From: Rickettsiales bacterium
GTDB taxonomy: Bacteria > Pseudomonadota > Alphaproteobacteria > Rickettsiales > SXRF01
NCBI GenBank assembly: GCA_025464625.1
Contig: JAOAUZ010000006.1
Location: 1 to 54,235 of the forward strand
Reading direction: 5' to 3'
DNA: 54,235 nt
The position numbers and the translations under genes were made by a program. Positions 24,919 to 25,884 of this stretch are shown one piece after another (positions within the stretch are counted from its first letter, which is position 1; the number at the start of each line of letters is the position of its first letter). The notes beneath the pieces are model-generated. The model saw only the letters and a program-made list of their open reading frames with translations. It did no database searches and was not told the DNA's origin.

Positions 24919-25626
24919 ATGCACAGCCCATCACCTGACTGTAATTTTTGCCCACGGCTTTGTGAATTTCGGCAAAAAAATCGCGGTGAGCATCCTAGTT
25001 TTTTTAATGCACCAGTGCCGTCATTTGGAAGTTTGGATGCGCAGTTTCTGGTGGTTGGACTTGCCCCAGGATTAAAAGGGGCAAACCAGACGGGAAGACC
25101 ATTTACTGGCGATTATGCAGGGCTGATTCTCTATCATTCACTAAAGAAATATGGTTTTGCGAAGGGCGATTATAAAGAGCGCTTGGGTGATGGTTTTGAA
25201 CTGGTAAATTGTAGAGTAACTAATGCTGTGCGCTGCGTGCCACCAGAAAATAAACCAGAACCGTCTGAGATAAATAAGTGCAATAGTTTTCTGCGTGAAG
25301 AAATTGCCAAGATGCAAAATATGCAGGTGATAGTTTCGCTTGGGCTGGTTTCTCATAATGCCGTGCTAAAAGCCTTTGGACACAAACCATCCTTTGCTAA
25401 ATTTACACATGGTGCGCAGCATCTTCTCCCTCTCCCTCTGGGAGAGGGTTGGGGTGAGGGCAGGAAAACTAATGAAAGAGCCCTCACCCTATCCCTCTCC
25501 CAGAGGGAGAGGGGACTTTATTTATTAAACAGCTACCACACCTCGCGCTATAACATGAACACAGGTCGCCTGACGCAGGAAATGTTCGATGCGGTGGTGA
25601 AGAAGGCAGCAGATTTATTGCTCTGA
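24919..25626 (+). CDS. Uracil-DNA glycosylase, family 5 (UdgB)-like, with in-frame repeat insertion
   Basis: A 235-residue DNA-repair enzyme that removes uracil and related bases. Iron-sulphur-type cysteines open the protein (CNFC at 8-11, more at C15 and in NCRVTNAVRC). The family-5 active-site motif GLAPGLKGANQTGRPFTGD is near residues 50-68. The C-terminal substrate loop is SYHTSRYNMNTGRLT, where relatives have SYHPSxxNTxTGRLT, so the Pro is Thr. Residues ~170-199 (LPLPLGEGWGEG to LSQREREG-like sequence) come from a palindromic repeat inserted just before that loop. The frame is kept and the flanking motifs are intact, so it may still be active. Family 4 is the alternative. Confidence 0.85.
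   Translation: MHSPSPDCNFCPRLCEFRQKNRGEHPSFFNAPVPSFGSLDAQFLVVGLAPGLKGANQTGRPFTGDYAGLILYHSLKKYGFAKGDYKERLGDGFELVNCRVTNAVRCVPPENKPEPSEINKCNSFLREEIAKMQNMQVIVSLGLVSHNAVLKAFGHKPSFAKFTHGAQHLLPLPLGEGWGEGRKTNERALTLSLSQRERGLYLLNSYHTSRYNMNTGRLTQEMFDAVVKKAADLLL
25426..25514. repeat. Palindromic repeat inserted in the uracil-DNA glycosylase gene
   Basis: The left arm 25426-25460 (CTCCCTCTCCCTCTGGGAGA and onward to GGTGAGGG) and right arm 25481-25514 are near-perfect inverse copies, about 34 bases each with only a few differences, around a ~20-base loop. Each arm also folds on itself (CCCTCT/AGAGGG). Such CCCTCTCCC-type elements are widespread intergenic repeats in proteobacteria. Here it is read through in frame, giving about 30 residues with no stop. 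This copies the behaviour of Rickettsia palindromic elements, though the sequence family is different. Confidence 0.85.
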
Positions 25627-25884
25627 TGCCAGTTTTTTTGCCAGCTCAACATCGTGAATCTTCAGGCGTTTATGGCGGGAAGTTTCGCCAGCAACTAATT
25701 CCAGAGCTGTTTTAGGAATTTTCCAGTGCTTTGCCAGAAAGCGTATTAATTCCGCATTTGCCTTGCCATCTTCAGGCTGGGCAGCGATTTTTACCCTAAG
25801 TACAGGCTTTCCATCCGCATCCGCAACCCAGCCGATAATCTGGTTTTTCGTGGATTTTGGGGCAATATGCAGGGCTAATATCAT
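25615..25884 (-). CDS. DUF167 / YggU family protein
   Basis: An 89-residue protein matching the DUF167 pattern: LHIAPKSTKNQIIGW near the start, then RVKIAAQPEDGKANAELIRFLAKHWKIPKTALELVAGETSRHKRLKI, of which PxDGKAN and the GxxSRxK box are the diagnostic parts. Family members are small cytosolic proteins of unknown function. The gene converges with the glycosylase gene and their ends overlap by 12 bases. Confidence 0.88.
   Translation of the reverse strand: MILALHIAPKSTKNQIIGWVADADGKPVLRVKIAAQPEDGKANAELIRFLAKHWKIPKTALELVAGETSRHKRLKIHDVELAKKLASEQ

Follow-up and report, generated by a model that had tools for sequence, protein, structure and literature searches.

A palindromic repeat read in frame inside a uracil-DNA glycosylase gene and its relation to DUF559 genes set between inverted repeats

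Here, we report a palindromic insert, open in frame, in the uracil-DNA glycosylase (UDG) gene of a Rickettsiales bacterium (GenBank assembly GCA_025464625.1, contig JAOAUZ010000006.1). The insert is probably a MITE-like remnant of a mobile element of about 450 bp, built as an inverted repeat, a DUF559 open reading frame (ORF), and a second inverted repeat; by its unit layout, it is assigned to the known BoxC/PIT/TM (triplex motif) family. We observed the repeat unit, the inverted ends, unrelated host genes, empty sites, and short remnants where other genomes have the full element. The ends are TM repeats here and in many genomes, and variants with other sequences in part of the order.

The glycosylase gene and its insert

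Features of the UDG locus are given in Table 1, numbered within the window (the whole stretch of DNA that was analyzed, 54,235 nucleotides). An earlier note on this DNA had described a palindrome in frame inside the UDG gene, which was confirmed: the insert is an inverted pair of 34-base units without a stop. The left unit is laid out as CCCTCTCCC-TCT-GGGAGAGGG-TT-GGGGTGAGGG(C) and the right unit as (G)CCCTCACCC-TAT-CCCTCTCCC-AGA-GGGAGAGGG, each being a hairpin that has its third arm (GGGTGAGGG or CCCTCACCC) on the inner side. The ends of the pair, CTTCTCCCTC...GAGAGGGGACTT, resemble those of sister copies elsewhere in the genome (C1:50470, C5:121473, and C6:826789). In the UDG frame, the insert is translated as LLPLPLGEGWGEGRKTNERALTLSLSQRERGLY, between HGAQH and LLNSYHTSR.

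Table 1. Features of the UDG gene and its insert
Feature	Position in window	Strand	Basis or detail
UDG ORF, 235 aa	24919..25626	+	PF03167, PDB 2d3y; flanking sequence kept on both sides of the insert
Paired TM element, MITE-like (inverted TM units, 18-nt spacer)	about 25424..25518	.	Unit layout, sister copies
Left TM unit, CCCTCACCCC type read on the minus strand	25428..25461	-	Hairpin CCCTCTCCC/GGGAGAGGG, third arm GGGGTGAGGG on the inner side
Right TM unit, CCCTCACCCT type	25480..25513	+	Third arm CCCTCACCC on the inner side, then hairpin
33-codon stretch, HGAQH to LLNSYH	25423..25521	+	7 codons in same-genus G001; net +26 aa

The match to PF03167 (UDG superfamily; residues 34-229, 84 bits) runs across the insert, and the closest solved structure (PDB 2d3y; E, 5e-40) is aligned on both sides of it, with the motifs GLAPG..G.N.TGRPFTGD and SYH.SR...TGRLT falling one on each side. 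A single residue of the 2d3y chain separates the two aligned blocks, which places the insert in a tight turn immediately ahead of the SYH..R motif. These motifs are ones that we take to be labels of UDG family 5, and on that assumption, together with the 2d3y match, the enzyme is called family-5-like; NCBIfam returned only family-4-type and UdgX models, all below cut-off. The insert would most likely form an extra exposed loop beside SYH..R without destroying the enzyme, a placement that comes from the 2d3y alignment and an activity that is inferred. A DUF167 (YggU) gene (window positions 25615-25884, minus strand) is convergent with the UDG ORF and overlaps its 3' end.

UDG matches were found in 48 of 90 genomes, from which 29 loci were fetched (the counts given here cover L032-L057 and leave out L058-L060). 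The insert was absent from all 26 relatives read at the site, the same-genus genomes G001-G003 included, so no segment conserved at the protein level without the palindrome was found. The length of the loop at this site varies among relatives. The earlier note was right that residues had been added between HGAQH and LLNSYHTSR, and its estimate of about 30 has to be lowered: with 7 residues between the anchors in G001 and 33 here, the net gain is 26.

Repeat copies across the genome

The repeat is not confined to the UDG gene. A 181-base query gave 52 BLAST matches in the genome (both strands), and the core pattern CCCTCNCCCN{0,10}GGGNGAGGG matched 30 times, versus no match for the pattern read backwards; the UDG palindrome is therefore not due to chance. 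Taken together, the BLAST and core matches make up 27 sites: full DUF559-bearing elements at two, pairs at six, and solo or partial copies at the other 19. Nine of the sites fall within conserved genes, and in all nine the copy is in frame (UDG, IleRS, RecG, MurD, two aminotransferases, CobD/CbiB, YkuD with a full element, and GlyRS beta). Internal sites were recognized by an open frame, which biases the count toward in-frame cases. NCBIfam models span the insert well above cut-off in four of these hosts (ileS, 843 bits, cut-off 621; murD, 381 bits, cut-off 212; recG, 905 bits, cut-off 785; glyS, 719 bits, cut-off 300). Many copies, nine in-frame gene sites, and empty relatives support the proposal of the earlier note that a mobile palindrome makes protein insertions in this lineage.

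Further copies touch the ends of genes (LigA, CutA, RsmH, CheB, an MbnB-like gene, and ABC-3), and the remaining sites look intergenic (a Pfam scan covered the flanks of seven; C6:736427 was left unclassified). At the seven scanned sites, no split gene was seen in flanking ORFs and Pfam matches, since the families of the flanking ORFs differ or one side is without a family. At the N-terminal side of rsmH, a TM copy and two half-hairpin copies lengthen the open frame (L010, 1501-1606; G000:C6:22539-22644).

In all eight pairs and full elements of the genome, the third arm points inward, and six of the eight mix CCCTCACCCC and CCCTCACCCT (or CCCTCATCCT) units, the exceptions being the IleRS pair and the YkuD element. 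Judged from these arrangements, the two unit types in these six would correspond to the left end and the right end of a single element.

DUF559 genes between inverted repeats

The DUF559 (PF04480) genes found in the genome (C1:28555-28875 and C5:241368-241676) are both flanked by inverted TM copies, forming full elements at C1:28491 and C5:241297 whose TM ends are shared with the UDG pair. Together with its TM ends, the first of these genes is read as a single frame of 308 aa within a YkuD L,D-transpeptidase gene.

The same arrangement was sought in named genomes at the best 80 DUF559 loci, chosen by protein similarity alone. Three loci (L107, L120, and L162) were dropped for short flanks or runs of N, the high score of L162 being due to an N run, which left 77; controls were 1,540 displaced positions within the same loci, with the threshold at their 99th percentile. 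Flanking inverted repeats reached the threshold at 60 of 77 loci and scored above the highest single control at 7. TM-like hairpins stood on both sides at 45/77 loci (1/1,540 controls) and on either side at 64/77 (59/1,540 controls). A first run under slightly different rules had passed 59 of 79 loci (one of them the N-run locus L162), with 44 above the highest control. Against a DUF559-bearing element stand the 17 of 77 loci below the threshold, the 13 without a TM-like hairpin on either side, and the low number (7) above the highest control.

Within the window's order, 71 loci were reduced to 67 by removing L083, L092, L098, and L357 (short flanks or N), and 57 of the 67 reached the same inverted-repeat threshold. 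TM-like hairpins were present on both sides at only 23 and on either side at 30, which counts against such an element; as 57 loci pass while so few have TM on both sides, other end sequences must exist in the order. Six loci from a plasmid collection (E. coli, two; Neisseria, Azospirillum, Deinococcus, and Synechocystis) were all flanked by a TM-like motif on one side or both, but only two of the six passed the inverted-repeat threshold. E. coli K-12 ycjD, with a TM-like motif on its 3' side only and no inverted pair, is a further point against.

At L130, L143, L145, and similar DUF559 loci, the flanking repeats have a second, inner palindrome; these resemble the RIME repeats of Rhizobium, which may be of the same element class. 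DUF559 relatives are also encoded on 62 viral contigs (IMG/VR, L179-L240).

TM repeats and DUF559 also occur together across genomes. Among 343 genomes of the order, 46 had both, 22 had DUF559 only, 17 had TM only, and 258 had neither (Fisher odds ratio, 32; p, 3e-26), and the association persisted when the two large families lacking both were left out (odds ratio, 13; p, 8e-14). For 398 genomes of the phylum, scored for a DUF559 match counted as strong (E < 1e-20) and for five or more TM cores, the corresponding counts were 71/32/19/276 (odds ratio, 32; p, 1.5e-35). Kinship was ignored in all three tests. The PF04480 search had no match in the E. coli control, although ycjD of MG1655 is annotated as DUF559, so the family search undercounts.

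DUF559 in frame inside host genes

In the order, DUF559 was matched 86 times at 80 bits or more, and 49 of these matches fall in open frames at least 400 aa long. Host families were scanned at 20 of 30 fetched order loci, chosen for long frames. The host family was found on both sides of DUF559 at 14 of the 20 (class I tRNA synthetases, eight; Mfd, Sua5, DnaE, RecJ, PriA, and an Eco57I-type methylase) and on one side only at the other six, in five of which the frame runs off the locus at the other side. IleRS and ValRS are among the hosts, and NCBIfam names, each above at least one cut-off, were ileS for L070 and L072, valine-tRNA ligase for L074 and L093, recJ for L091, and priA for L095 and L160. 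One IleRS frame (L078, G341) also contains a GNAT acetyltransferase domain (PF13302) besides DUF559.

At ten named-genome loci scanned in the same way, host domains were found on both sides at three, on one side at six, and on neither at one. The three were a class I synthetase (Rickettsiales bacterium AM-377-L16), PriA of an alphaproteobacterium, and PriA of a Gastranaerophilales record (L160) with a TM-ended DUF559 gene; such in-frame insertions are thus not confined to this lineage.

Transfer, empty sites, and decay

A ValRS gene (L074, G315) and a RecJ gene (L091, G305) have an element in common, 481 bp at 75% identity with both inverted ends included, and their 600-bp flanks are unrelated apart from short repeat matches. 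The ends of this element have an outer hairpin, an inner palindrome, and a purine arm, in a sequence unmatched by the TM patterns, which again weighs against a DUF559-bearing element defined by TM. The ValRS site is empty in G309; in the ValRS gene of G307 (L366), an extra stretch without DUF559 lies at the same insertion site, before LLKQEKITRAVKC, and looks like a decayed element.

At one IleRS site, a full element with TM-like ends (G007), a TM composite (G010), an 88-bp TM pair (this genome), and an empty site (G006) were found, and the same IleRS sites are repeatedly occupied in different genera. Among the matches listed for G007, one close IleRS copy was found, and it bears the element; the other listed match has 28% identity. 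Two further genomes (L255 and L256, from G012 and G008) have a different palindrome-like insert in the IleRS loop after GKYTD, in frame (..VTPAQAG..SGLRRNDE..) and with 81-87 nt between anchors, so this loop accepts several repeat families. The YkuD site holds a full element here and in G007, where the match listed does not extend far into the second YkuD half, and is empty in six relatives. In G013 (L283), a short in-frame insert, PPPIEGRLGGGLEG..PPPQPSPCGGGS, follows EYNRH at the full-element site without DUF559. Because a full element, a TM pair, and an empty site occur at one locus in different genomes, we read full elements, pairs, and solo copies as stages of decay, and the UDG palindrome, from its layout, as a putative pair stage.

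On a DUF559 tree, which was poorly resolved (few columns and few supported forks), host labels need 14 changes, versus a mean of 20.4 for shuffled labels, and none of 200 shuffles was as low. The YkuD elements of this genome and G007 form one supported clade, and in another supported clade, copies from ValRS and RecJ are intermingled. The idea that each host site has its own clade was rejected, since only YkuD of the eight labels forms one; two rows labeled LeuRS may be ValRS (L093, ValRS by NCBIfam, and L327).

No obvious target duplication was seen at UDG, YkuD, or IleRS, where relatives are too distant for base-exact junctions. Comparison of 26 within-genome DUF559 pairs gave best local matches of about 66-83% (one was higher, over only 23 bases); with copies this divergent, there was no sign that a full element had recently jumped within a genome, which also speaks against a DUF559-bearing element.

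Mechanism and alternatives

The steps behind these patterns are inferred. A DUF559 nuclease would cut DNA and drive insertion, either by break repair from a copy of the element or by processing of the terminal hairpins; its activity on the ends has not been shown, and the autonomy of full elements is likewise an inference. That it moves the element by break repair is a tentative proposal, which we believe a little less than we doubt it. Since TM copies are free of stops when read in several frames, those landing in frame in an exposed loop could be tolerated and translated. Internal deletion of a full element would then leave a TM pair (UDG and IleRS), and a later step of decay a solo TM (RecG, MurD, and others). 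Our broadest reading, on which we lean only just toward acceptance, is that TM/BoxC/PIT repeats represent the termini and scars of a minimal mobile element of a new class, whose sole protein is a Vsr-like DUF559 nuclease without a splicing domain, and which persists translated in frame in essential proteins and donates loops to them (UDG, IleRS, RecG, and MurD) on decay.

Alternatively, DUF559 could be a site-specific homing endonuclease acting at a few sites, with the repeats being hot spots, or products of its cutting and the ensuing repair, rather than element ends. We consider this unlikely, though the relationship of DUF559 to a homing endonuclease (PDB 3r3p), the recurrent occupation of IleRS sites, and the divergence of copies within one genome all agree with it; conservation of the unit in ValRS and RecJ extends through the two inverted ends and no further, the third arm is without exception inward in the pairs and full elements of this genome, and the host genes are many and different.

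Less probable again is an unidentified enzyme that mobilizes TM pairs, with DUF559 as passenger cargo caught between two repeat copies. DUF559 lies between TM-type repeats across a broad set of named records, and the DUF559 unit recurs in unrelated hosts, neither of which suits a passenger. The Y1 transposase of RAYT systems was the sole alternative searched: Y1_Tnp (PF01797) had no match in this genome, its relatives lying outside the search, against matches in 5 of 14 control genomes, and a RAYT/Y1 mobilizer was rejected on that basis. What keeps another mobilizer in play is that 6 of 398 genomes have at least 30 TM cores but no DUF559 match of strong or intermediate grade (a count against a DUF559-bearing element, from a search that undercounts the family), that TM units far outnumber DUF559 genes (30 core matches versus 2 here), and that many DUF559 units of the order have inverted ends that are not TM.

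Removal of the insert from RNA or protein (as an intein or by bypass), leaving a normal product, would account for essential synthetases among the host genes. It is very improbable: none of the Pfam matches in the scanned DUF559 host ORFs was to an intein or Hint domain, and an intein reading was rejected on those scans; furthermore, the nine internal sites are in frame and stop-free, which removal does not require (these sites having been recognized by their open frame). An ordinary lineage-specific protein insertion with a palindromic look by chance, for which only the variable UDG loop speaks, can be set aside almost entirely, given the identity at the DNA level to genome copies read in several frames and the absence of the insert from every relative read.

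Significance

TM/BoxC sequences are among the widespread small bacterial repeats, and a recurrent DUF559 partner is a candidate parent for them. The element behind the repeat appears to be undescribed in the literature searched: no work linking DUF559 with TM repeats was found (subscription journals were mostly outside the search), and none on DUF559, ycjD, COG2852, or PF04480 was about repeats, judging from titles and the starts of abstracts. The findings suggest that a repeat which is very common, and whose origin is unknown, was left as a scar by a mobile element not yet described that can lodge in working genes. This would be a means for selfish DNA to add segments to essential proteins with no intein or intron involved, would give a possible use to DUF559, still a family of "unknown function," and raises the question of whether Rickettsia palindromic elements come from a similar source.

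Comparison with known systems

Rickettsia palindromic elements are short palindromes that lie in frame in unrelated protein genes, and they are not known to have an autonomous parent. The TM copies of this genome are likewise inserted in frame in unrelated proteins; the parallel drawn in the earlier note is apt as an analogy, and only as one. REP/RAYT systems are also similar: palindromic repeats bracket the gene of a DNA-cutting enzyme, and nonautonomous copies exist, as is the case for TM repeats here. They differ in the enzyme, which here is a PD-(D/E)XK-type nuclease and not a Y1 (HUH) transposase.

The main solved relative of the DUF559 profile is PDB 3hrl (E, 1e-39). The profile also matches 3r3p, titled "Mobile intron protein" (E, 2e-4), which we take to be I-Bth0305I, a likeness to the EDxHD homing endonucleases. 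The EDxHD enzymes have been described as a family that includes I-Bth0305I (PMC3943268), and YcjD has been assigned to the PD-(D/E)XK superfamily, where it detects Vsr in profile comparison (PMC1189080). In contrast to homing endonucleases of this kind, no intron or intein was seen around DUF559, which has inverted palindromic ends and a frame shared with the host.

The repeat itself belongs to the BoxC/PIT/TM family, of which Holder et al. 2015 (PMC4666352) give 23 copies in E. coli K-12, always intergenic; among these are five inverted pairs, each of which joins a type A loop to a type B loop. In Enterobacter sp. 638, one hundred hairpins with the TM core are reported (PMC2869309). The CCCTCTCCC-GGGAGAGGG hairpin, the purine third arm of GGGTGAGGG type, and the presence in many genomes agree with that description (PMC4666352), as do pairs of two loop types, found here in six of eight. 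An intergenic location is a reported property of the K-12 copies, not of the TM motif itself. Whereas the K-12 copies are intergenic and are reported without an associated mobility gene (PMC4666352), the repeats reported here occupy nine in-frame sites inside genes and have DUF559 between them.
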